A DNA stretch of 64,000 nt from the NCBI RefSeq assembly GCF_003030345.1, contig NZ_CP028158.1:7130001-7194000 (forward strand), read 5' to 3'. The translations under genes and the position numbers were made by a program. Positions 34,093 through 46,637 of the stretch are shown piece after piece (within the stretch, counting starts at the first letter, position 1; each line of letters opens with the position of its first letter). The stretch is from Plantactinospora sp. BC1. GTDB lineage: Bacteria > Actinomycetota > Actinomycetes > Mycobacteriales > Micromonosporaceae. The notes beneath the pieces are model-generated. The model saw only the letters and a list, made by a program, of their open reading frames with translations, searched no databases and was not told where the DNA came from.

Positions 34093-34113
34093 TGACAATC
34101 ATTCTCATTGTCG
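34093..34113 (+). promoter_or_regulatory. Zur box upstream of znuA
   Basis: TGACAAT and ATTGTCG face each other across CATTCTC, so GACAAT/ATTGTC form perfect six-base arms. This agrees with the pattern of actinobacterial Zur boxes. It lies 16 bases before the znuA start, where zinc-loaded Zur would block transcription of the znuACB-arsR-zur genes. Confidence 0.75.
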
Positions 34114-34128
34114 CGGAGAGTGGATGAC

Positions 34129-35112
34129 ATGGTGATCCGCTCCGCCCTCCGTACCGTCGCCCTTACCACCACCGGCCTGCTCGCGCTGGCCGGCGCCGCC
34201 GCCTGTGGCAACGACGGCAGCGGCGCCGACCCCGACCGGGTCGACGTCGTCGCCGCCTTCTATCCCCTCCAGTTCGTCACCGAACGTGTCGGCGGGGACG
34301 CCGTCCGGGTGACCAACCTCGCCAAGCCCGGCGCCGAGCCGCACGACCTGGAACTCAACCCGGGCCAGGTCGGCCAGGTCAGCGACGCCGAACTGGTCGT
34401 CTACCTCGCCGGCTTCCAGCCGAACGTGGACGAGGCGGTGCAGCAGCAGGCCGAGGACCGGGCCTTCGACGTGGCCACCGTGCAGCCGCTGCTGGCCGCC
34501 ACCGCCGGCGGACACGAACACGAGGGCGAAGACGGACACGAGGGAGAAGACGGACACGAGGGCCAGGGCGCCGAGCAGGCGGAGGGCGCGGCCGGCAAGG
34601 ACCCGCACGTCTGGCTGGACCCGACCCGGCTCGCCGGGATCGCCGACAAGCTGGCCGAGCGGCTCGGCACGGTCGACCCGGACCGGGCCGCCGACTACAC
34701 CGCCCGGGCGAAGGCGCTCCGCACCGAACTGGAGACCCTCGATTCCGAGTACGCCAAGGGCCTGGCGAACTGCCAGCGGCGTGAACTGGTGACCAGCCAC
34801 ACCGCCTTCGGGTACCTGGCCGAGCGCTACCGGCTGGAGCAGATCGGCATCTCCGGGCTGACCCCGGAGGACGAGCCGGCCCCGCAGCGGCTGGCCGAGG
34901 TGGCCGCCGAGGCCCGGGAGCACAACACGAGCACGATCTTCTTCGAGACCCTGGTCAGCCCGAAGGTCGCCGAGACGATCGCCCGGGAGGTCGGGGCGAA
35001 GACCGCCGTACTGGATCCGATCGAGGGCCTGCAACCCGGCAGTACCGGGGACTACCTTTCGGTGATGCGCAGCAACCTCGCGGCCCTGAGGACCGGACTG
35101 GGATGCTCATGA
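34129..35112 (+). CDS. znuA: Zinc ABC transporter substrate-binding lipoprotein
   Basis: This surface lipoprotein captures Zn2+ for the ZnuBC importer. I use the ATG 34129 (GGAGAG eight bases upstream), giving 327 residues with a lipobox Cys near residue 26. Family zinc ligands are visible: EPHDLELNP (His72), KDPHVWLDP (His160) and TSHTAFGYLAERY. Between them a loop near residues 128-145 contains three imperfect HEGEDG repeats, the His/acid-rich flexible loop typical of zinc-binding proteins. It is repressed through the Zur box just upstream. Confidence 0.95.
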   Translation: MVIRSALRTVALTTTGLLALAGAAACGNDGSGADPDRVDVVAAFYPLQFVTERVGGDAVRVTNLAKPGAEPHDLELNPGQVGQVSDAELVVYLAGFQPNVDEAVQQQAEDRAFDVATVQPLLAATAGGHEHEGEDGHEGEDGHEGQGAEQAEGAAGKDPHVWLDPTRLAGIADKLAERLGTVDPDRAADYTARAKALRTELETLDSEYAKGLANCQRRELVTSHTAFGYLAERYRLEQIGISGLTPEDEPAPQRLAEVAAEAREHNTSTIFFETLVSPKVAETIAREVGAKTAVLDPIEGLQPGSTGDYLSVMRSNLAALRTGLGCS

Positions 35113-35876
35113 CCGGACCTGTCGTCACTGTGCAGCACGGCGTGGTCGCCTACGACGACCGGGCCGTGCTGCGCGGCGTCTCCCTGCGGGTCGACCCCGG
35201 CGAGGTGGTCGCCGTACTCGGCGCCAACGGCTCCGGCAAGTCCACCCTGATCCGGGCGATCCTCGGGCTGGTGCCGCTGGCCGCCGGGACGGTCACCCTG
35301 TTCGGCACCCCGCAGCGCCGGTTCCGGCAGTGGGCCCGGATCGGGTACGTGCCACAGCGGATGGGCGCCGGCAGCGGCGTACCGGCGACCGTGGCCGAGG
35401 TGGTCGCCTCCGGACGGCTGGCCCGGCGCGGCGTGTTCCGGCCGCCGGGGCGGGTCGACCGGACGGCGGTGGCCGAGGCGCTGGCGGCGGTCGGGCTCGC
35501 CGACCGGGCCGGTGACCCGGTGGCCACCCTCTCCGGCGGGCAGCAGCAGCGCACGCTGATCGCCCGGGCCCTCGCCGGCCGGCCGGAGCTGCTGGTCCTC
35601 GACGAGCCGACCGCCGGGGTCGACTCGGCCAGCCAGGACGCCTTCGCCGAGGCGCTGCGCGGGTTCGTCGCCGGTGGCGGGACGGTGCTGCTGGTCGCGC
35701 ACGAACTCGGGCCACTGGCCGGGGTGATCACCCGGGCGGTGGTCGTACACGAGGGAACGATCGCGCACGACGGCGCGGTACCGGAACCGGCCGGGCACCA
35801 CGCGGCGCCCGGACACGAGCACGTCCACCCGCACGCGCCGGAGGAGTCGACAGGGATGTGGGGCAGCCGGCCGTGA
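35109..35876 (+). CDS. znuC: Zinc ABC transporter ATP-binding protein
   Basis: This ATPase energises zinc uptake. It has Walker A GANGSGKST, Q-loop VPQRMG, signature LSGGQQQR, Walker B LLVLDEPTAGVD and the H-loop LVAHELG. I use the ATG 35109, which overlaps the znuA stop as ATGA; an in-frame ATG two codons earlier is also possible. The C-terminus is His-rich (HHAAPGHEHVHPH), which may bind zinc. Its stop codon lies inside the dispersed repeat that precedes znuB. Confidence 0.95.
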   Translation: MTGPVVTVQHGVVAYDDRAVLRGVSLRVDPGEVVAVLGANGSGKSTLIRAILGLVPLAAGTVTLFGTPQRRFRQWARIGYVPQRMGAGSGVPATVAEVVASGRLARRGVFRPPGRVDRTAVAEALAAVGLADRAGDPVATLSGGQQQRTLIARALAGRPELLVLDEPTAGVDSASQDAFAEALRGFVAGGGTVLLVAHELGPLAGVITRAVVVHEGTIAHDGAVPEPAGHHAAPGHEHVHPHAPEESTGMWGSRP

Positions 35877-35958
35877 GCGAGCGAAGCGAGCGAATCAGCA
35901 AGCACAGTGTCGATGTGCCTCATGCCGGCACGGAGCGCAGCGGAGGGCCGGCATGAGT
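35873..35958 (+). repeat. 86-bp dispersed repeat carrying the znuB start codon (copy 1)
   Basis: This element begins GTGAGCGAGCG and ends GCCGGCATGAGT. A second copy at 58119-58204 has the same length and differs at only about a dozen positions. It contains the znuC stop at one end and, at the other, GCGGAG plus the ATG of znuB. The arms CTCATGCCGGC (35919-35929) and GCCGGCATGAG (35947-35957) are perfect 11-base complements, so the start codon sits in a hairpin whose 17-base loop holds the ribosome site. Confidence 0.85.
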
Positions 35959-36915
35959 CTCTTCCAGTACGACTTCATGATCAGAGCCCTGGTCGGGGCG
36001 CTGGTGATCGGGCTGACCGCCCCGGCGCTCGGCATCTATCTGGTGCAGCGCCGGATGTCGCTGATCGGTGACGGGGTCGGACACGTCGCGCTGACCGGGG
36101 TCGGGGTCGGGCTGCTGCTCGACCGGTCCCCGGTGCTGACGGCGGTGATCGTCGCCGCGGTCGCCGCGATCGGCATCGAGCTGATCCGGGAACGCGGCCG
36201 GACCTCCGGCGACGTCGCCCTGGCGATGCTCTTCTACGGCGGCATCGCCGGTGGCGTGATGCTGGTCGGGCTCTCCGGCAGCCGGAGCAACGCCAACCTG
36301 ATGGCGTACCTCTTCGGCTCGCTGACCACGACGTCGCCGCAGGATCTGGTGGTGATCGTGGTCCTCGCGGCGGTGGTCCTGACCGCCATGGTCGCGTTGC
36401 GCCCGGCGCTCTTCGCGATCTGTCACGACGAGGAGTACGCCCGGGTCTCCGGCCTGCCGGTCCGGGCGCTGAACCTGCTGCTCGCGGTGACCACGGCGGT
36501 GACCGTGACCATCGCGATGCGGGCGGTCGGGCTGCTGCTGATCAGCGCCCTGATGGTGGTGCCGGTGGCCACCGCGCAGCTGTTCACCCGGGGCTTCCTC
36601 GGCACCATGCTCGCCGCGATGGGGCTCGGGTTGCTCGCCTCCGGCTCCGGGGTGTGGCTGGCCGGCACCGCCAACACCGCGCTCGGGGCCACCATCGTGA
36701 TCCTGGCGATCGGGCTCTTCCTGGTGGCCTCGGTGGCCGTGGCGGTACGCCGGGCGGTGGCCCGACGCCGTGCCGTGCCCGGGCCGGATCCGCACGTCGA
36801 ACCCTGTGACGTGGTGCTCGACGCCGCCCGGCAAGCCGCCCAGGACCCGGCCCCGTCGACCGGGCCGGTCCCGGTTGACCTTGGAACCGCGCACCGAACG
36901 GCGGTACGCCGTTAA
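35953..36915 (+). CDS. znuB: Zinc ABC transporter permease
   Basis: This 320-residue membrane protein is the zinc channel. About eight hydrophobic segments follow the ABC-3 pattern: MIRALVGALVIGLTAPALG, VQRRMSLIGDGVGHVALTGV and VGLLLISALMVVPVATAQL. The tail from about residue 275 is soluble and basic. The ATG lies inside the 86-bp dispersed repeat and is predicted to be part of a hairpin, so its translation may be limited or coupled to znuC. The TAA stop is 20 bases before the ArsR-type gene. Confidence 0.94.
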   Translation: MSLFQYDFMIRALVGALVIGLTAPALGIYLVQRRMSLIGDGVGHVALTGVGVGLLLDRSPVLTAVIVAAVAAIGIELIRERGRTSGDVALAMLFYGGIAGGVMLVGLSGSRSNANLMAYLFGSLTTTSPQDLVVIVVLAAVVLTAMVALRPALFAICHDEEYARVSGLPVRALNLLLAVTTAVTVTIAMRAVGLLLISALMVVPVATAQLFTRGFLGTMLAAMGLGLLASGSGVWLAGTANTALGATIVILAIGLFLVASVAVAVRRAVARRRAVPGPDPHVEPCDVVLDAARQAAQDPAPSTGPVPVDLGTAHRTAVRR

Positions 36916-36916
36916 C

Positions 36917-36929
36917 AACGGTTACCGTT
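36917..36929 (+). promoter_or_regulatory. Palindrome over a leaderless promoter of the ArsR gene
   Basis: AACGGT and ACCGTT face each other around a single T. The element contains TACCGT (36923-36928), a TAnnnT -10 sequence six bases before the GTG of the ArsR/SmtB gene. Autoregulation by that sensor would fit. The palindrome is short. Confidence 0.45.
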
Positions 36930-36934
36930 ACGGG

Positions 36935-37234
36935 GTGACGGGCACAAACGCCTACGAGGCCTACGCGGGCGCCGGTGAGCTGCTACGAGCGCTCGCCGCA
37001 CCGATCCGGCTCGCCATCGTCAGCGAACTCGCGCACGGCGAACGGTGCGTGCACGAACTGGTGGAGACCCTCGGCGCCCCGCAGCCGCTCGTCTCCCAGC
37101 ACCTGCGGGTACTCCGCGGCGCCGGGGTGGTACGCGGCTCGCGGCGCGGTCGGGAAATCGCCTATACCTTGGTCGACGAGCACATCGCGCATATCGTGGC
37201 GGACGCGGTGAGCCATTCGGGGGAAGCCACCTGA
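36935..37234 (+). CDS. ArsR/SmtB family zinc-responsive regulator
   Basis: This 99-residue winged-helix repressor has LLRALAAPIRLAIVSELAHG, CVHELVETLGAPQPLVSQHL and RVLRGAGVVRGSRRGREIAY. The last helix reads LVDEHIAHIVADAVSHSGE, with the spaced Asp/His residues of the alpha-5 zinc site of SmtB-type sensors. It would release DNA when zinc is high. The GTG 36935 has no Shine-Dalgarno sequence but is preceded by a TACCGT element. An ArsR-type gene followed by a Fur-type gene recalls the smtB-zur pair of mycobacteria, which links zinc excess and shortage. Confidence 0.9.
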   Translation: MTGTNAYEAYAGAGELLRALAAPIRLAIVSELAHGERCVHELVETLGAPQPLVSQHLRVLRGAGVVRGSRRGREIAYTLVDEHIAHIVADAVSHSGEAT

Positions 37235-37282
37235 CGGGGGACGTCCGGCGGCAGGCACCTGACACGACGCGAGGAGGGCGAG

Positions 37283-37690
37283 ATGGCGGCGGCGGAGAGC
37301 GGCGCGGCGGTACGCAACACCCGACAGCGCAGCGCGGTCAGCGCCCTGCTCGGTGAGGTCGAGGGCTTCCACAGCGCCCAGGACCTGCACGCGATGTTGC
37401 GCAGCCGTGGCGAACGGGTCGGCCTGACCACCGTCTACCGCACCCTGCAAGGGCTCGCCGACGCGGGCGAGATCGACGTGATGCGCCCGCCGGGCGGCGA
37501 GCACCTCTACCGGCGGTGCAGCGAGGGGCACCACCACCACCTGGTCTGCCGGGCCTGCGGGCGTACGGTCGAGGTGGAGGGGCCGGCCGTGGAGAGCTGG
37601 GCCGACCGGGTCGCCAACAAGCACGGCTTCTCCGACGTCAGCCACACCCTGGAGATCTTCGGCACCTGCCCTGACTGCGCCGGCCGGTGA
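37283..37690 (+). CDS. zur: Zinc uptake regulator Zur (Fur family)
   Basis: This 135-residue repressor has a winged helix (TRQRSAVSALLGEVEGFHSA, LTTVYRTLQGLADAGEID) and a dimerisation/metal domain with EGHHHHLVCRACGRTVEVEG and GTCPDC. The HHHH stretch and the two CxxC pairs are the regulatory and structural zinc sites. The context makes Zur much more likely than Fur: it closes the znuACB-arsR cluster and its box lies upstream of znuA. The ATG is preceded by GAGGAGGGCGAG. Confidence 0.94.
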   Translation: MAAAESGAAVRNTRQRSAVSALLGEVEGFHSAQDLHAMLRSRGERVGLTTVYRTLQGLADAGEIDVMRPPGGEHLYRRCSEGHHHHLVCRACGRTVEVEGPAVESWADRVANKHGFSDVSHTLEIFGTCPDCAGR

Positions 37691-37702: not shown

Positions 37703-40315
37703 TCAGCCCGCCCCGAAGCAGACGAAGGCCGCCGCCGTGGCCTGCGCGGAACCGTCGCCGTCGGCGGCGAACTCCCGCTGGGCGGCGGCGAGCGCCGACG
37801 CCGGCCGGGCGCCGGCACCCATCCGGCGGTGCAGGTCCAGCATCAGCGTGCTGGTCAGATCGGCCGGCACCGGCAGCACGGTGGCGATCAGACTGCTGGC
37901 GCCGAGGGCCAGCAGCACCGAGGTGAAGCCCATCACCTCGTCACCGGGGCGTACCCCGGACAGCCCCGAGTCGCAGGCGGAGAGCACCACACAGCCGGGC
38001 GGTCGGGGCAGCCGCTCCAACTCGTACGCGGTCAGCGGTCCGTCGGCGAGGTCCAGTGTGGAGAAGAGCGGGTTGTCGGCCCGGAAGGTCCCGTGCGCCG
38101 CGATGTGCGCCAGCCGGGCCCCGTCCAGCCCCGTGGTCACCGCCTCGGCGGTCGCGCCCTCGCCGGCCAGCAGCCGCGCCCCGGGCAGTACCCGGCTCAG
38201 CAGGCGTACCTCGGTCTCGGCGGCCGGCAGGCGCGGGCCGGCGGCGAGCAGCGGCGGACCGTCCGGCAGCGTACGGCGGGCGGCGGCAAGCCACGCCGTC
38301 GCCGACGGAGCCACCGTCACCGGCCGTCCGGCGCAGGTCGGCAACCCCGCCCAGGCAACCGCGTGCAACGCCCCGATCGGCACCATCACCAGCGGCCGGT
38401 CGGCCAGGCGCGCCCGCAGCGGCCCGAAGAGCTGCCGGTCCAGGGCCGACGCGGCGTGCTCGACCCCGGCCCGCGCGTCGGGGGTGTCCCCGGTGACGAC
38501 CAGCCGGCGCAGGCCGAACCGGTGCAGCCGGGCCGCGTGCAGTGCCGCCTCCAGCGGGCCGAGGTCGTGCAGGGTCGCCCGGCAGTCCCGGAGCAGCACC
38601 GCCCGGAGCCGCTCCCGGTGGGCCACCAGTTCCACCAGTACGGCGCCGCCGAGCCACTCGCCGAGGGTCTGCACACCCGGCGGCGCCAGCAGCCCGCCGT
38701 CCCCGTCGACCCCCCGGGCCAGCTCCCGGATCTGCCGTTCGAGCCGGGCCTGCCGGCGGCGCAGCGCGGTCACCGGGCGGCCGGCGAGCAGCGCCTCCTC
38801 CAGCGCACCGCTGACCATCCGCAGCTCGGCGAGGGCGGCGGCGAGTCCGACGTCCTGCGGCGGAAGCACCGCCCGCATCCGCAGCGCGCTGGCGCGCCAC
38901 CGCTCCGTCCAGGCCAGCACCTGGGCGGGGGTACCGGAGGTGATCGCCAGGTCGACTCCCTCGGCCGCGAGTTCCTGGCCGTGTGCGCCGCTGTGCGCGC
39001 GCAACTCGGTGGCGCCGAGCGCGGCCCGGTAGCCGTCGAGTACCGCCAGTCCGCGCTGCAACGCGCGGGCGCCGCCCCGGTGGTCGCCGTCGAGCCGCCG
39101 GGACAGCGCCAGCGCGTACCAGCCCTGCGCCCGCCGCGACGCCGTACCCCGGCGGCGGGCCCGGGCGGCGACCGCCAGCAGTTCCGCCGCCCGACCGGTA
39201 CGCCCCAGCGCGGTGGCCAGCGAAGCGGCCTCGATCCGGGTGGTCAGCGCCGGTCCCGGCCATCCGGTGGCGTCGAGCTGGTCGGCGGTACGCACCAGCG
39301 CGGTCAGCAGCGCCGCCGAGCGGGTACCCCGGCGCAGCTCGGCGCGGAGTTCGACGTGCCGGGCGAAGGCGGCCCAGGTGCGCCGCCCCTGCCGGCGGAA
39401 CCGGGCCCGCGCCTCGGCGGCGGCCGTGGTGGCGGTCTCCAGGTCACCGGCGAGCAGCGCGGCCCGGGCCCGGGCGAGCAGCGCCTCGGCGAGATCCGAG
39501 GCCATCCCCCGCCGGCGCAGCTCGCGTACGGCGAGGCTGGCCACCTCGACCGCCTCGTCGACAAGTGGCACGGAGAGCAGCAGCTCGAACCGGTCCAGCA
39601 GCAGCGCCGGCCGGGGCACGTTGAGCCGGGCGTACTCCTCCTCGACGGCGGCGAAGCGGCGCAGCGCCCCGGGGATGTCGCCGCCGTGGCTCGCGGCGAT
39701 GCCGAGGTTCCACCGGACGTCGGCGGCGGCCAGGTCGAGTCCGAGCCGTTGGAAGATGGCGGCGGCGCAACCGAGGTCGTCGTCGGCGCCGAGGGTGGCG
39801 CCCCGGTGTGCGTTGAGCAGCCCCCGGTTGTTCCGGGCGCGCGCCTCCAGCAGCAGGTCGCCCTCGCGCCCGGCGATCTCCACCGCGATCCCGTACTCCC
39901 GGACCGCCTCCTCGAACTGGCCGCGGAAGTGCAGCACCACGCCCCGCTGCATCCGGGCCCGCCCGGCGTCGGCGCCGGTCAGCTCGGGCAGCGCCGAGGT
40001 GACCTCGGCCAGGGCGGCGGAGGTGCGGCCGGCGTTGGCGAGTACGTAGCCGAGGCTCATCCTGGCCAGTGCCGCCACCCGGGGCGTACCGGCGGCGCGC
40101 AACGCACGGCGCAGGTGCCGCAGGGCCGCCGGCAGGTCGTTGAGTTCCCGCAGCGCCAGCCCGATCGCCCGCTCGGCGGTGGAGCGCTCGTCGGCGTCGG
40201 AGTGGGCGGTGGCCAGCACCCGCCGACCGAGCATGATCGCTTCGCGGGGATAGCGCTGTACGGCGTCGAGCGCCGCCCGGGCCGTGGGAGCGACGGAGCC
40301 GGCGCTGTCACCCAT
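37703..40315 (-). CDS. TPR-CHAT protein (caspase-like protease)
   Basis: This 870-residue cytosolic protein has about 450 residues of TPR-like helical repeats (for example LRELNDLPAALRHLRRALRAA and EGDLLLEARARNNRGLLNAH), a linker, and a C-terminal CHAT domain. The caspase-type dyad is present: His in HIAAHGTF (about 741) and Cys in VVLSACDSG (about 781). CHAT proteins cleave specific partner proteins. I use the ATG 40315, six bases after a GATTCT element with TTGACC 17 bases further upstream, so the mRNA may be leaderless. It is divergent from the subtilisin-sigma operon, with which it probably forms one system. Confidence 0.88.
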   Translation of the reverse strand: MGDSAGSVAPTARAALDAVQRYPREAIMLGRRVLATAHSDADERSTAERAIGLALRELNDLPAALRHLRRALRAAGTPRVAALARMSLGYVLANAGRTSAALAEVTSALPELTGADAGRARMQRGVVLHFRGQFEEAVREYGIAVEIAGREGDLLLEARARNNRGLLNAHRGATLGADDDLGCAAAIFQRLGLDLAAADVRWNLGIAASHGGDIPGALRRFAAVEEEYARLNVPRPALLLDRFELLLSVPLVDEAVEVASLAVRELRRRGMASDLAEALLARARAALLAGDLETATTAAAEARARFRRQGRRTWAAFARHVELRAELRRGTRSAALLTALVRTADQLDATGWPGPALTTRIEAASLATALGRTGRAAELLAVAARARRRGTASRRAQGWYALALSRRLDGDHRGGARALQRGLAVLDGYRAALGATELRAHSGAHGQELAAEGVDLAITSGTPAQVLAWTERWRASALRMRAVLPPQDVGLAAALAELRMVSGALEEALLAGRPVTALRRRQARLERQIRELARGVDGDGGLLAPPGVQTLGEWLGGAVLVELVAHRERLRAVLLRDCRATLHDLGPLEAALHAARLHRFGLRRLVVTGDTPDARAGVEHAASALDRQLFGPLRARLADRPLVMVPIGALHAVAWAGLPTCAGRPVTVAPSATAWLAAARRTLPDGPPLLAAGPRLPAAETEVRLLSRVLPGARLLAGEGATAEAVTTGLDGARLAHIAAHGTFRADNPLFSTLDLADGPLTAYELERLPRPPGCVVLSACDSGLSGVRPGDEVMGFTSVLLALGASSLIATVLPVPADLTSTLMLDLHRRMGAGARPASALAAAQREFAADGDGSAQATAAAFVCFGAG

Positions 40316-40321
40316 GCGGAC

Positions 40322-40350
40322 AGAATCCCCGATCGATGACCTTGGGTCAA
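40322..40350 (-). promoter_or_regulatory. Promoter of the TPR-CHAT gene
   Basis: On the minus strand TTGACC (40350-40345) and GATTCT (40327-40322) are separated by 17 bases, and six bases lie between GATTCT and the ATG. The transcript would then be leaderless. Confidence 0.45.
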
Positions 40351-40406
40351 TCTGTACGGTTATCCGAAAAGCGACGATTCCACGACCCCTCACGGATCCG
40401 CGATTA

Positions 40407-40439
40407 TTGACAATCGACTATCACTGGAAAACAATCGAC
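40407..40439 (+). promoter_or_regulatory. Promoter region of the S8 protease-sigma operon with direct repeats
   Basis: TTGACA (40407-40412) and AACAAT (40430-40435) are 17 bases apart. CAATCGAC occurs twice, at 40411-40418 and 40432-40439, exactly 21 bases apart and overlapping both hexamers. A regulator or the operon's own sigma factor could recognise this repeat. The stretch is markedly AT-rich for this genome. Confidence 0.5.
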
Positions 40440-40518
40440 ACGGTCGGGGAATGTCTCGGGGAGTTGGCCCGCCGAAGCGCCCGCCGACCGCACTTCTTTC
40501 GTTCATTTGGGAGGACCG

Positions 40519-41826
40519 GTGTCGCCTGACCGTCCCGTCGCGCCGCGCCCGATCGGTCGGTTGTCCCGCCGGCATCTCATGGCGCTGGCCGCGCTGACCG
40601 CAGCCACCCCGTTGGGCGCCGGACTCCGGCCCGGGCCCGCCCTCGCCGGCAGCGACGACGACGCGTACCAGCGGGCATTTCAGCAACTGCTGGCGGCCGA
40701 TCCGGACGTGCTGGTCCACGACGAGCCCGGCCGGGAGTTCCTCTACCGCCCCCGGCAGTTGCTGGTGGCCAACCCGGACGCCGAACGGGTGGTGACCGCA
40801 CTGCGCAAGGCCGGGCATCCGGTCACCCGGGGCGGCGAGTTCGCCGGCGTCACCCGGCTGCGCTTCGACCGGGAGGCCCACGTCCCCTCGGTCGTGGCGA
40901 AGCTGCGCGATCCACGGCAGTGGCCCGACCAACCGATACCCCGGGTGCAACCGCACCACGTGCTGCTCGGCTACGGCAACATCATGGGCAACCCGGGCGG
41001 GCCACCGCAGGTCGCCGCCGCCCTGCCCGCCCCGGATCCGGCGCACGCCGGGGACGGCGCCGGGGTGACGGTGGGGATCTGCGACACCGGGGTCTGGCGA
41101 CTGGCCGGCGCCCGCCATCCGGAGTGGCTCGGCGGCGGCTACCTGCCGCAGGTCGACGACGAGGACCCGCTCTACCTGCACAGCGACGTGCTCGGCCCGC
41201 AGGGTGGGCACGGCACCTTCGTCGCCGGGGTGGTCCGGCAGGCCGCCCCCGGCGTGTCGTTCGACCCCGAGCCGGCGCTGAACCCGACCGGCGTCGGCGA
41301 CGAGGAGATGCTGGCGGCGGCCCTGGCCGGACTCGGCCCGGACGTGTCGATCGTCAACCTGTCGCTGGGCTGTTTCACCCAGGACGACCTGCCGCCACTG
41401 CCGCTGGCGAACGTCCTCGCCGGCAAGCGGGCCGGCAGCGTCGTCGTCGCGGCCAGCGGTAACGCCGGCACCGCCCGGCCGGCCTGGCCGGCCGCGCTGC
41501 CGGAGGTGGTGGCGGTGGCGGCGGTCAGCCAGGGGGCGAACGCGCTGCTGCCGGCCGCGTACAGCGGCTTCGGGTCCTGGGTGGACGCCTGCGCCGTCGG
41601 CGAGCGGACCAGCACCTACGTGGACGGCCGGCTGCTGCTGCCCGGCCGGCCCGTCAAGGAGTTCCGCGGGTACGCGACCTGGGCCGGCACCTCCTTCGCG
41701 GCGGCACACGTCTCGGGCCGGCTGGCCGCCCTGATGAGCGCCACCGGGCTCGACGCCGAGCAGGCCCGGCTGGTCCTGCTCGGCGAGCCCGACTGGCACC
41801 CCGACTACGGCGTACTCGTTGACTGA
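40519..41826 (+). CDS. S8 family serine protease (subtilisin-like) with Tat signal
   Basis: This 435-residue protease has the catalytic triad Asp189 (VGICDTGVW), His231 (GGHGTFVAGV) and Ser392 (AGTSFAAAHVSG), plus the oxyanion Asn in ASGNAG. A twin-arginine segment (LSRRHLMALAALTAA, residues 15-29) suggests export, and residues 45-150 resemble a propeptide or substrate-recognition region. The GTG start follows GGGAGGACCG. Its last codons overlap the start of the sigma-factor gene, and it is divergent from the CHAT gene. S8 proteases beside CHAT and sigma genes recur in actinomycetes as I recall. Confidence 0.9.
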   Translation: MSPDRPVAPRPIGRLSRRHLMALAALTAATPLGAGLRPGPALAGSDDDAYQRAFQQLLAADPDVLVHDEPGREFLYRPRQLLVANPDAERVVTALRKAGHPVTRGGEFAGVTRLRFDREAHVPSVVAKLRDPRQWPDQPIPRVQPHHVLLGYGNIMGNPGGPPQVAAALPAPDPAHAGDGAGVTVGICDTGVWRLAGARHPEWLGGGYLPQVDDEDPLYLHSDVLGPQGGHGTFVAGVVRQAAPGVSFDPEPALNPTGVGDEEMLAAALAGLGPDVSIVNLSLGCFTQDDLPPLPLANVLAGKRAGSVVVAASGNAGTARPAWPAALPEVVAVAAVSQGANALLPAAYSGFGSWVDACAVGERTSTYVDGRLLLPGRPVKEFRGYATWAGTSFAAAHVSGRLAALMSATGLDAEQARLVLLGEPDWHPDYGVLVD

Positions 41827-42517
41827 GCAGCCGGATCCCGCCACGCGTCCGGACGCCGGCCCGGCGCCGGAGGTCCCGACGAGCGACGCGATCCTCGCCG
41901 GTCTGGTCTCCGCCGCCGCGAACGGCGACGAGTTCGCCTGGGTCGAGCTGGTCCGCCGCTACGCCCCACTGGTCCTGTCGGTGATCCGGGCGCACGGGCT
42001 GAACCGGACCGACGCGGCCGACGTCAACCAGACCGTCTGGCTGCGCCTGGTGGAGCACCTGGGCCGGGTACGCGAGCCCGCCGCCCTGGCCACCTGGCTG
42101 GCCACCACCACCCGGCGGGAGTGCTACCGGCTGGTCCGGGTCGGCCGGCGTACCCAGCCGTTCGACCCGCTCGACGAGGCCGTCGAGGCGACCATCGGCG
42201 CCCTGCTGCCGCCGGACTTGCGGACACCGGACGAGAATCTGCTCCGGGCGGAACGCCGGCAGGCGCTACGGGACGGCTTCGGCCAGCTTCCGGCGCGCTG
42301 CCGGGAGTTGCTCTCCCTGCTGGTCGCCGATCCCCCGACCAGCTACCGGGAGATCGCGCGACGGTTGGGCATGCCGATCGGCAGCATCGGCCCCTCGCAG
42401 GCACGCTGCCTGCGGAAGCTGCGCAACTCCCCCGCGCTCGCCGCGTTCGTCGGGGCGTCCTCGGACGCCGAGGGGAGCGGAGGTGACCGCGATGGGGCTG
42501 TGGCCGCCGGCCGATGA
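41819..42517 (+). CDS. Sigma-70 family RNA polymerase sigma factor
   Basis: This 232-residue ECF-like sigma factor has region 2 (FAWVELVRRYAPLVLSVIRA, VNQTVWLRLVEHLGRVREPA) and region 4 (LPARCRELLSLLVADPPTSY and REIARRLGMPIGSIGPSQAR). Both promoter-binding regions are complete. The TTG start overlaps the protease stop codon by eight bases and has no strong ribosome site, so translation is probably coupled to the protease. The C-terminal 25 residues are Gly/Ser/Asp-rich. No classic anti-sigma gene follows; the small acidic protein downstream takes that position. Confidence 0.9.
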   Translation: MTEQPDPATRPDAGPAPEVPTSDAILAGLVSAAANGDEFAWVELVRRYAPLVLSVIRAHGLNRTDAADVNQTVWLRLVEHLGRVREPAALATWLATTTRRECYRLVRVGRRTQPFDPLDEAVEATIGALLPPDLRTPDENLLRAERRQALRDGFGQLPARCRELLSLLVADPPTSYREIARRLGMPIGSIGPSQARCLRKLRNSPALAAFVGASSDAEGSGGDRDGAVAAGR

Positions 42518-42956
42518 CGACGCCCTGCTGAGCGAGCTGGGTGCGGCGCTGCGCGAGGCAGGGCCACCGCCGGAGGAGTTACTGACCGCCGCGTACGCGG
42601 CGTTCAGCTGGCGGACGGTGGACGCCGAACTGGCCGTCGCCGAGCTGACCTTCGACTCGGCGTGCGACCCCGAGCCGGCCGGGCTGACCCGGTCCACCGG
42701 CTCCACCCGCGCCCTGGCGTTCCACGCCGGTCCGGTCGTCGTCGCGATCGAGGTGACCGGGACCGGCATCGTCGGCCAGCTCTCGCCGGCTCGCGGCGGC
42801 CGGGTCGTCGCCCGCACCCCGGGCGGCCCCTACGAGGAGGTCGCCGTGGACCCGGTCGGCTTCTTCTCGCTGGGTCCGCCGCCGCCCGGCCCGGTCCAAC
42901 TACACGCGCGGACCTCCGACTACGCGGTGGCGACCAGCTGGGTCTCGCTCCGCTGA
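42492..42956 (+). CDS. Small acidic protein coupled to the sigma factor, unknown function
   Basis: I do not recognise a named domain in this 154-residue protein. A perfect GGAGGTGA lies five bases before the ATG 42492, inside the end of the sigma gene. The N-terminal half is acidic and helical (DDDALLSELGAALREAGPPP) and is followed by the stretch AAFSWRTVDAELAVAEL. The second half is beta-rich (HAGPVVVAIEVTGTGIVGQL), ending in VATSWVSLR. There is no signal peptide or membrane segment. Its position suggests a sigma-factor partner or protease target. Confidence 0.8.
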   Translation: MGLWPPADDDALLSELGAALREAGPPPEELLTAAYAAFSWRTVDAELAVAELTFDSACDPEPAGLTRSTGSTRALAFHAGPVVVAIEVTGTGIVGQLSPARGGRVVARTPGGPYEEVAVDPVGFFSLGPPPPGPVQLHARTSDYAVATSWVSLR

Positions 42957-43281: not shown

Positions 43282-44319
43282 ATGACCACTGCGAGTCCAC
43301 GTCTGTTCCGAACCGCCGGAGTGTTGTTCGGCGCGGTATTGGCGACGCTGCTGACCGTCTCGACGAGTGGCGCCGCCCTGGGCGGCGGCGTCGGCAACGG
43401 GTCGGAGGCCGGCGCGGCGGTCTCCGCGCGTACCGACGTGTTCATGAAGGACACCGCGTCGGACGTCGGGAACGAGCCGCACGGGGCGATTTATTCGTCC
43501 TTCTTCAACAGCCCGGACGTCAAGATCTGCCCCAGCGCGATCGAGTGCGCGTCGCACACGAACCCGGTCGTCGGGTCGACCAGCTACATCTTCGTCAAGC
43601 TCCGGAACCCGGGCCCGTACGGGTCGGGGATCAGCTCCGGCACGCTGCGTGCGTACTACACCACCTCGGGTGGCGCCGCGAACTGGCCGGCCCACTGGAC
43701 CCCGATCGGCTCGAAGAGCCTGCCGGTCGCACCCGGTGAGACCGTCACCTCGATCGCGTGGCCGAACGTCCCCTCCATCGGCCACTTCTGCCTCCTGCTC
43801 CGCTGGGAGTCCGAGACCGACCCGATGAACTTCGAGGGGACGACGACCTCCATCAACACGCAGTACAACAACAACCTCGCCTGGAAGAACGCCAACACCG
43901 TCCCGGCCACCCCGGGCGGGCCGCCGGTCGACCGGCCGTACGCGCTGGCGAACGCGCTGCCGGTGCCGGCGAACTTCGATCTCGTGTTCCGCCCGGCGGA
44001 CCAGGCCGCGCCGAACCTGAAGATCCTGGTCGACCTCGGCCCGGAACTGTTCGAGCGCTGGGTACGGGCCGGACGGGCGGGTGACGGCGTCCGGGTGGTC
44101 GGTCGGACCCAACTGGAGGTCGACCCGAACAAGGCACAGATCAGGGACCTGCTGATCAATCCGGAGGAGCGTCCCGTCGTCAAGCTCAGCTTCGCGGTCG
44201 GCGAGGGCGGGCAGAAGCCGTACGTGCTCCAGGTGCTACAGGTCGGACCAGCCCGGGAGGGCGGCGAGAAGTTCGTGCTGGGCGGGGTGGACTACACCAT
44301 CGTGTCGGGCCGAGGCTGA
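43282..44319 (+). CDS. Secreted protein of unknown function
   Basis: This 345-residue protein begins with a Sec signal (LFRTAGVLFGAVLATLLTVS, ending near SGAALGGG). Residues 45-240 form a beta-rich domain: DVFMKDTASDVGNEPHG, SPDVKICPSAIECASHTNPV, YIFVKLRNPGPYGSG and SGGAANWPAHWTPIGSK, suggestive of an immunoglobulin-like or CARDB-like fold. The C-terminal 100 residues (VDLGPELFERWVRAG and onward) are predicted alpha/beta. I know no function. AGAAGGA precedes the ATG. It lies 325 bases after the CHAT-linked sigma operon and ends at a strong terminator, so it could be a target of that sigma factor. Confidence 0.78.
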   Translation: MTTASPRLFRTAGVLFGAVLATLLTVSTSGAALGGGVGNGSEAGAAVSARTDVFMKDTASDVGNEPHGAIYSSFFNSPDVKICPSAIECASHTNPVVGSTSYIFVKLRNPGPYGSGISSGTLRAYYTTSGGAANWPAHWTPIGSKSLPVAPGETVTSIAWPNVPSIGHFCLLLRWESETDPMNFEGTTTSINTQYNNNLAWKNANTVPATPGGPPVDRPYALANALPVPANFDLVFRPADQAAPNLKILVDLGPELFERWVRAGRAGDGVRVVGRTQLEVDPNKAQIRDLLINPEERPVVKLSFAVGEGGQKPYVLQVLQVGPAREGGEKFVLGGVDYTIVSGRG

Positions 44320-44366
44320 CGACGGAGGGCCGAAGCTAACGACGGAGGGCCGAGGCTGACGACGGA
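44307..44366 (+). repeat. 20-bp tandem repeat, three copies
   Basis: Three units that begin GGGCCGAGGCTGACGACGGA run from 44307 to 44366; the middle one has two changes. The stop codon of the secreted protein lies in the first unit, and the terminator stem starts seven bases after the last. Confidence 0.9.
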
Positions 44367-44372
44367 GGACGG

Positions 44373-45617: not shown

Positions 45618-46547
45618 TCAGCTGTCGGTTGGCGGTCGGCGGGGCTGGCGGCTGGCGCGCACCAGGCCGGCCAGGTCGCCGACCGGGCCGAAGTGCCGCA
45701 GCTTGTCGGGGTTGACGACGGAGTGGATCGTCTGGACCTGACCGTCGGCGATGCCGAGCCCGATCACCCCGACCAGCCGGTCCTGCGAATCGAACGCCAT
45801 CGCGCCGGGCTGGCCGTTGACCTCGGCGAGCTGGACGCGCACGCCGAGGCGGGGCAGCGCGGAGATCCCGGCCAGCAGGGCCCGGGCCACCCGCTGCCGG
45901 CCGTTGAGTGGCCGCCCCAGCGCCGGCGCCCTGCCGCCGCCGTCGCCGTGCAGTGCCACGTCCTGCGCCAGCAGCTCCTCCAGCGCCCGCAGGTCGCCCT
46001 GGCCGGCTGCGGCGAAGAAGCGCTCGGCCAACTCTTCCCGCTGCCGCCGGGAGGCGTGATAGCGCGGCCGGCGCTCCCGGAGGTGGTTGCGGGCCCGGGC
46101 GACCAGGTGCCGGGCACCGTCCACATCGGTACCGACGATCTCGGCGACCTCCGGGTACGGATAGTCGAACACCTCGCGCAGCAGGAACGCGGCCCGCTGC
46201 TGCGGCGTCAGGCTCTCCAGCAGCACCAGGAACGCCAGCGACAGCGAGTCGGCGGTCTCCGCGTACTCGGCCGGTGACGGGTCGGTGACCAGTGGCTCCG
46301 GCAGCCACTCGCCGACGTACCTCTCCCGGCGCACCCGGGCCGAGCGCAGCTGGTCGATGGCAAGCCGGGTGACCAGGGTGGCGAGGTACGCCCGGGGCGA
46401 GGCGATCGACTCACCCCGGCGCAGGGTCTGGTGCATCCGCAGGAACGCTTCCTGCACCACGTCCTCGGCCTCGCTCACGCTGCCGAGCATCTGGTAGGCG
46501 ATGGCGAACGCCTGCGGTCGCAGCTCGGCGTAAAGCTCCGAGGACAT
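45618..46547 (-). CDS. sigJ: ECF41-type sigma factor (SigJ-like) with SnoaL-like C-terminal domain
   Basis: This 309-residue sigma factor starts at ATG 46547 after GGAGATGTC. Regions 2 and 4 are complete (YQMLGSVSEAEDVVQEAFLR, then LTPQQRAAFLLREVFDYPYP). After about residue 185 comes a SnoaL/NTF2-like domain (RFFAAAGQGDLRALEELLAQ, DVALHGDGGG) and the tail motif around NPDKLRHFG. ECF41 factors use this domain as a built-in regulator in place of a separate anti-sigma factor. The DoxX-like gene downstream is the likely partner. Confidence 0.92.
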   Translation of the reverse strand: MSSELYAELRPQAFAIAYQMLGSVSEAEDVVQEAFLRMHQTLRRGESIASPRAYLATLVTRLAIDQLRSARVRRERYVGEWLPEPLVTDPSPAEYAETADSLSLAFLVLLESLTPQQRAAFLLREVFDYPYPEVAEIVGTDVDGARHLVARARNHLRERRPRYHASRRQREELAERFFAAAGQGDLRALEELLAQDVALHGDGGGRAPALGRPLNGRQRVARALLAGISALPRLGVRVQLAEVNGQPGAMAFDSQDRLVGVIGLGIADGQVQTIHSVVNPDKLRHFGPVGDLAGLVRASRQPRRPPTDS

Positions 46548-46637
46548 GACATCTCCGCTCGTCGGGTTCACCCATAGAGACGAGACACCCGGACGCCCCA
46601 TGACCGGCAGTCAGCCAGGTCACAGTAGGGTGCGGTC

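Follow-up and report, generated by a model that had tools for sequence, protein, structure and literature searches.

A four-gene actinobacterial module in which a caspase-like protease may free a sigma factor from a candidate anti-sigma factor

Can a caspase-like protease govern a sigma factor through a small inhibitor without CRISPR? The question is raised by four neighbouring genes at positions 37703-42956 of a 64,000-nucleotide stretch of Plantactinospora sp. BC1 DNA (contig NZ_CP028158.1, positions 7,130,001 to 7,194,000, forward strand; called the window below, with positions counted from its first letter). They encode a TPR-CHAT protease, an S8 subtilase, an extracytoplasmic function (ECF) sigma factor and a small acidic protein. 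An earlier note, made from the letters alone, had proposed that the small protein is both inhibitor and substrate, in parallel with the type III-E CRISPR proteins Csx29 and Csx30. The genes are a compact set carried by many soil bacteria, and we give a probability of about 0.6 to the reading that they form a self-contained, CRISPR-free, protease-gated transcription switch in which the CHAT protease cuts the small protein at one arginine.

The small protein and its invariant arginine

The small protein (42492-42956, plus strand; 154 amino acids), which we propose to be a soluble anti-sigma factor, is laid out as N-terminal helices, a linker and a beta-sandwich resembling CarboxypepD_reg. Its gene had been credited with a perfect ribosome site. 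The Shine-Dalgarno sequence GGAGGTGA (42479-42486, plus strand) is indeed there, but the start first chosen, GTG 42483 (reading frame 42483-42956, isoelectric point of the product 4.5), falls within it, and ATG 42492, 5 nucleotides downstream, is the likelier start. The CGG codon at 42690-42692 (plus strand) specifies a linker arginine, R67 from the ATG or R70 from the GTG, which is the proposed P1 residue of a cleavage site.

When 139 small proteins were aligned with the window protein as reference, this arginine was the sole column that never varied. It is kept in 139/139 proteins, in 140/140 rows (the window being counted twice) and in 94/94 representatives at 70% identity. The set comes from 148 loci examined; it leaves out L070, where no small protein was found again, L100-L102, which scored weaker than E 1e-8 and all belong to the deep set of 12 described below, L103, L104, L105, L134 and L170, taken as repeats of other loci, and L160, and it still holds three repeated pairs. 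L160 and the five presumed repeats show the arginine as well. The residue lies 8-18 positions after a conserved leucine and 8-17 before a conserved phenylalanine, the spacing varying on both sides. All 94 representatives have V, T, A, L, I or M before it, and 87 have Gly, Ser or Ala after it, most commonly as A-G-V-R|G/S. In the AlphaFold model of L120, where the small protein of the window family consists of two helices and a beta-sandwich, the arginine is residue 262 and lies within 256-263, the sole run of at least three residues with a predicted local distance difference test (pLDDT) below 50. As would suit a protease substrate, the conserved residue is found within a linker that is flexible and variable in length. 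The invariant arginine, the small residue after it and the low-confidence stretch around it give this place the look of a protease site; as the site the arginine is well supported, and judged from sequence it is probably where a protease cuts. A site in the N-domain of the subtilase or in the sigma linker was considered instead and set aside because no invariant arginine occurs there; the subtilase and sigma alignments gave no comparable invariant linker arginine at the threshold used.

The arginine is also kept in 12/12 deep relatives (family f32 of the phylum), a set which leaves out L188, a copy of L102. Their small protein is homologous to that of the window family, with the arginine aligned (profile comparison, E 3.7e-11), and carries an extra N-terminal stretch beginning DWVEGRLPEEEA. 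Sigma, CHAT and S8 genes are adjacent in 11 of the 12 aligned loci, and the remaining one, L099, is a 6.4-kb contig with sigma alone beside the small protein; L191 showed CHAT alone and L192 CHAT and S8 alone. When the deep relatives were scanned singly (E up to 0.5), the NCBIfam anti-sigma model NF052375 was matched in 10 of the 12 (best 7.1e-5), zf-HC2 in 3 and RskA_N in 2. In a PDB profile search with these relatives, the RskA chain 4nqw_B was second of three matches (E 0.63). The profile of the small-protein family itself retrieved from the PDB neither a Csx30 chain nor, directly, a solved anti-sigma factor, the best match being 7dm0, a surface protein. Moreover, a natural fusion of sigma factor and small protein was found at L053:9099-10028 (minus strand), a single 310-residue open reading frame with a divergent sigma half and AGVR|G kept. 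The proposal that the small protein is inhibitor and substrate thus gains sequence evidence on both counts, anti-sigma matches in deep relatives and an invariant linker arginine, from which we infer sigma binding and cleavage; that the small protein is an anti-sigma factor appears quite probable.

Conservation of the four-gene set

Restriction of the four genes to close relatives had been named beforehand as a finding that would speak against the proposal, and the genes are not so restricted. Within the order, 26 of 61 genomes, the window's own included, have the small protein, and a profile search of 296 genomes taken as a sample of the phylum detected it in 36, about one third of these matches being weak. 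In the named genomes a nine-member small-protein profile was searched via one peptide pattern (WRT[VI]D[AS]EL[AT]), and the best 80 of 115 confirmed stretches were counted. Among these 80 loci the sigma gene was found in 78, CHAT in 66, S8 in 72 and all four genes in 65. Where at least 6.5 kb of flanking sequence was available on both sides (62 of the 80 loci), the set was complete in 57. Of the other five, three are Jiangella loci that hold only sigma and small protein, with CHAT elsewhere in each genome, beyond the fetched stretch; a fourth, one of a pair of Blastococcus copies, has no sigma gene in range, and the fifth is an orphan small protein. The sigma gene lies directly upstream of the small-protein gene in 122 of 139 cases, with no same-strand sigma gene in 13 and other layouts in 4.

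The loci show 20 gene-order patterns, counting extra matches and truncated loci, and over 61 loci, which are the 65 complete ones minus four with split or double matches, the four proteins have correlated pairwise distances (r 0.84-0.91), down to 22-31% identity. It follows that the unit travels together and is not a case of frozen synteny. Since the arrangement is conserved across the phylum despite shuffled gene order, chance falls far short of explaining it. Of the 36 genomes with the small protein in the phylum sample, 34 have CHAT, versus 27 of the 260 without it (Fisher p 1.6e-25, a value which overstates independence because the sampled genomes are related). Neighbouring duplicates of the module or its parts were seen at L148/L150 (Blastococcus mobilis, the two small proteins being identical over the compared stretch) and at L089 (genome G155), one genome each. 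Orphan small-protein copies at L047 and L050/L154 have no sigma, CHAT or S8 gene nearby and lie in a neighbourhood common to both genomes. In Pseudonocardia CNS-139, CHAT and S8 domains stand in a single open reading frame (L155:11411-13903, plus strand), which was not used as evidence of fusion because that stretch has apparent frameshifts.

The association as such is not new. A review (PMC8999054, citing Casas-Pastor 2021 and Huang 2015) describes the group ECF54 as an ECF sigma factor beside CHAT, subtilase and 'carboxypeptidase' genes, proposes proteolytic regulation and, in what it says of this group, gives the anti-sigma factor as absent. CHAT, subtilase and carboxypeptidase(-like) genes likewise lie beside the sigma gene here, so that our sigma factor is ECF54-like by context and the module has already been described as a neighbourhood. 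Among the relevant literature searched, ECF54 is named only in that review. The new element is the small protein as a candidate anti-sigma factor with a defined cleavage site, for which the review's account of ECF54 has no counterpart and which is not named in this role in the ECF54-related titles or abstract openings searched. Very probably, the 'carboxypeptidase' of the ECF54 literature corresponds to the small protein's CarboxypepD_reg-like beta-sandwich. Of 28 small proteins examined, 12 match that family at E<=0.1 (best 1.3e-5, the score shown being under the cut-off); for the small protein of the window itself, neither Pfam (at E 0.001) nor NCBIfam (at E 0.1) gave a match.

The proposed switch and its rivals

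The TPR-CHAT gene (minus strand) encodes 870 residues at 37703-40315, not 37703-40393, because the alignment with relatives points to ATG 40315 as the start. The product matches Pfam CHAT with 118.9 bits, and its TPR matches fall below the Pfam cut-offs. The AlphaFold model (pLDDT 91.7, predicted template modelling score (pTM) 0.89) shows a long helical repeat at about residues 12-534 followed by the CHAT domain at 621-868, the combination of TPR superhelix and caspase-like fold that Csx29 and separase have. The His/Cys dyad (H741/C781) is intact, as had been noticed at first sight; of 115 CHATs, 114 have both residues, and the last shows a gap, its gene being split between two frames. Foldseek matched the model to separase (9hn5_A, 1.1e-16), Csx29 (8eey_B, 2.3e-15) and DdvA (8rw5, 7.7e-14), with modest TM-scores of 0.28-0.47. 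In Anabaena, HetF is reported to cleave PatU3, a case not relied on here, as the passage naming both in the one paper found makes no statement of it. As to specificity, a P1 arginine is used by the clan CD families clostripain, gingipain, separase and metacaspases (PMC12445089, PMC4626109). E702, invariant in 33 CHATs and conserved at 0.99 in a larger set, lies in the helix 697-709 after the strand 689-692 of the model; by our own mapping it would lie close to where gingipain R and separases have their S1 acid (PMC4626109), which speaks for arginine specificity. CHAT is thus likely, on present evidence, to be the cutter.

The following course of events is proposed. The small protein would bind the neighbouring ECF54-type sigma factor through its N-terminal helices and keep it inactive. 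A cue reaching the TPR superhelix would activate the caspase-like domain, and the CHAT protease, rather than the subtilase, would then cut the small protein after the invariant arginine, between the helices and the beta-sandwich. The broken inhibitor would release the sigma factor, which would drive at least its own operon, presumably by reading the promoter-like element described below. The subtilase may be an output, or a second protease that finishes off the inhibitor. Whether the same holds throughout the phylum, so that ECF54 sigma factors are generally switched on by separase-like TPR-CHAT cleavage of an anti-sigma factor, as a CRISPR-free counterpart of Craspase, we regard as evenly balanced.

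Several observations weigh against the proposed switch. The anti-sigma matches of the deep relatives are weak, the scores shown all being below curated cut-offs; they fall in the N-terminal stretch that the shorter window protein lacks, and the alignment of the deep and window profiles begins only at about residue 26 of the latter. When sigma factor and small protein were modelled by AlphaFold as one chain, as a check on the complex which the earlier note had asked for, docking was not confident (pTM 0.54, with 7 paired and 85 unpaired rows); Foldseek matches of this model to sigma/anti-sigma entries were not used, as they reflect the sigma half. In separase D2151 reads the P1 arginine, and its counterpart in Csx29 is K670 (PMC9729208); in our reading of the profile alignment the equivalent position here is the non-acidic S822, and so arginine specificity of the CHAT domain is not established. 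The TTGACA-like promoter element could belong to the housekeeping sigma factor. Finally, orphan small proteins without adjacent sigma or CHAT genes keep the linker arginine too, and an invariant loop arginine could be a binding residue instead of a cut site. This last point leads to a rival that we consider unlikely: the arginine contacts the sigma factor or TPR-CHAT, and binding and release are controlled without cleavage, TPR-CHAT perhaps acting as a co-anti-sigma factor. Loops can order on binding, and the structural and profile matches of TPR-CHAT include DdvA (PDB 8rot, 8rw5), a transmembrane anti-sigma factor of Myxococcus named as a CHAT domain-containing protein. However, the near-complete retention of the catalytic dyad is expected if cleavage matters, and the linker is of variable length before as well as after the arginine, with a next residue that is nearly always small.

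A second rival retains the anti-sigma factor and lets the S8 subtilase cut the linker arginine, with CHAT as activator of the subtilase or in a role elsewhere. The subtilase (40519-41826, plus strand; 435 residues; Pfam Peptidase_S8, 67.3 bits) has its catalytic triad, and with the window Asp/His/Ser as reference columns D/H/S is found in 108 of 117 subtilases, the others being gaps. In the fetched stretches S8 is also found no less regularly than CHAT (72 versus 66 of the 80 loci), and most copies lack an export signal and are apparently cytoplasmic. Export was called by simple motif and hydropathy rules on starts that were not curated. By these rules, a hydrophobic segment occurs in 32 of 119 subtilases and none upstream of the domain in 87. 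The N-terminus of the window enzyme is like that of twin-arginine translocation (Tat) substrates (SRRHLM plus a hydrophobic run), and a Tat-like motif is present in 23 of the 119, namely the window, 21 loci of Plantactinospora/Micromonospora type and the deep relative L100. In the window clade, therefore, S8 should not meet a cytoplasmic inhibitor, yet the linker arginine is kept there; the deep relatives L098, L100, L101 and L102 also have a strongly hydrophobic S8 N-terminus. We consider cutting by S8 improbable. Because the Tat-like motif belongs mostly to one clade, export is a clade feature, and the surface branch imagined in the earlier note can be at most a local addition; as part of a general core mechanism it was rejected.

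According to the proposal put forward for ECF54 in section 3.3 of the review (PMC8999054), the proteases might keep the sigma factor inactive by degrading it, with no anti-sigma factor and the small protein as an accessory; this is doubtful at best, since the small-protein gene occupies the usual place of an anti-sigma gene in 122 of 139 cases, the small protein is fused to sigma in L053, its deep relatives match anti-sigma models, if weakly, and no sigma column between regions 2 and 4 is conserved at 0.85 or more.

The preferred reading, cleavage of an anti-sigma factor by TPR-CHAT, has parallels in known systems. In type III-E CASP (PMC10028731, PMC9729208) Csx29 is the TPR-CHAT, Csx30 is inhibitor and substrate, and the third partner is CASP-sigma; shared with our module are the TPR-CHAT, a two-part protein, here the candidate inhibitor/substrate, with its cut or proposed cut in a flexible loop, and an ECF-type sigma factor. 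The parallel with Csx29 and Csx30 drawn at the outset is purely functional. The TPR-CHAT of the window scored 12.5 bits against the Csx29 family, well short of its cut-off of 300; the small protein (154-157 residues, beta-sandwich) showed no relation to Csx30 in the PDB profile search. One Csx30 is cut after leucine (PMC9729208), and mutation of another revealed no essential residue (PMC10028731), whereas the site proposed here has an invariant arginine. No CRISPR-like array was seen among the direct repeats of window positions 30-50 kb, cas genes not having been searched for. In Myxococcus xanthus DdvA/DdvS (PMC4374960; PDB 8rot/8rw5), a CHAT-domain protein likewise controls an ECF sigma factor without CRISPR, but DdvA is a single membrane protein and itself the anti-sigma factor, whereas the present module has a separate protease, a soluble candidate inhibitor and a subtilase. 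The EACC2-caspase systems (PMC8195603) also bring together genes for a caspase-fold protease, an ECF sigma factor and a TPR protein. Their account differs in giving EACC2 and TRADD-N as the constant domains, in naming trypsin-like peptidases and not S8, and, as far as it describes these systems, in mentioning no small beta-sandwich inhibitor.

If the proposed switch is real, Csx29-Csx30-sigma would be the CRISPR-tethered form of an older bacterial relay from caspase to transcription, bacterial caspase-like proteases would widely be transcription triggers and not just death or CRISPR effectors, and the misleading label 'carboxypeptidase' would be corrected. For the adjacency of the sigma factor to two proteases, the ECF54 review (PMC8999054) has no more than a proposal to give. 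With one invariant arginine located in a candidate anti-sigma factor, the ECF54 question becomes a one-residue experiment.

The locus in the window

Domain matches were found for the CHAT, S8 and sigma proteins, in agreement with the four genes first read here apart from the small corrections to the CHAT and small-protein starts. The sigma gene (41819-42517, plus strand; 232 residues; TTG start) overlaps the S8 gene by 8 nucleotides and is itself overlapped by the small-protein gene, so that subtilase, sigma factor and small protein form an overlapping operon running opposite to the CHAT gene. The sigma factor is complete, as supposed. Pfam region 2 scored 48.5 bits and region 4 23.3, just below the cut-off of 24.1, and the NCBIfam model sigma70-ECF scored 75.9 bits.

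The CHAT gene and the operon diverge from a common region of 203 bp (40316-40518), as described before, which contains a promoter-like element at 40407-40437 (plus strand). The window and 17 loci of Plantactinospora/Micromonospora type have in their divergent regions a common ATTGAC block with a downstream AAT, and the TTGAC core of the element is identical in all of them. The pattern derived from it has one exact match in the 8.3-Mb genome, at 40407-40437. It occurs once per genome, at the module, in six genomes of the genus carrying the small protein and is absent from a seventh, which is without the small protein. In six more distant genomes there were zero to two other matches, and a reversed control pattern gave two in one genome. 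This distribution is compatible with autoregulation, the element then presumably being read by the sigma factor of the module. A promoter common across clades was considered and rejected, since all 17 matches of the strict element fell upstream of S8 at loci of Micromonospora/Plantactinospora type. Kribbella has a different conserved divergent pattern upstream of S8 (13 loci, L122-L172, plus L156), with TCCCCC, GTCGGC and TGAAATGATA-like blocks.

Directly before the module, genes for zinc uptake (ZnuA, an ABC ATPase and an ABC-3 permease) and then a Fur-family, Zur-like regulator lie at 34108-37690 (plus strand). Beyond it, a 22-nucleotide direct repeat is present in three copies with 20-nucleotide spacing and 91-100% identity at 44307-44368 (about 44.3 kb), and 45618-46601 (minus strand) encodes another ECF sigma factor, which carries a SnoaL_2 domain at its C-terminus, a layout known from ECF41-type sigma factors.

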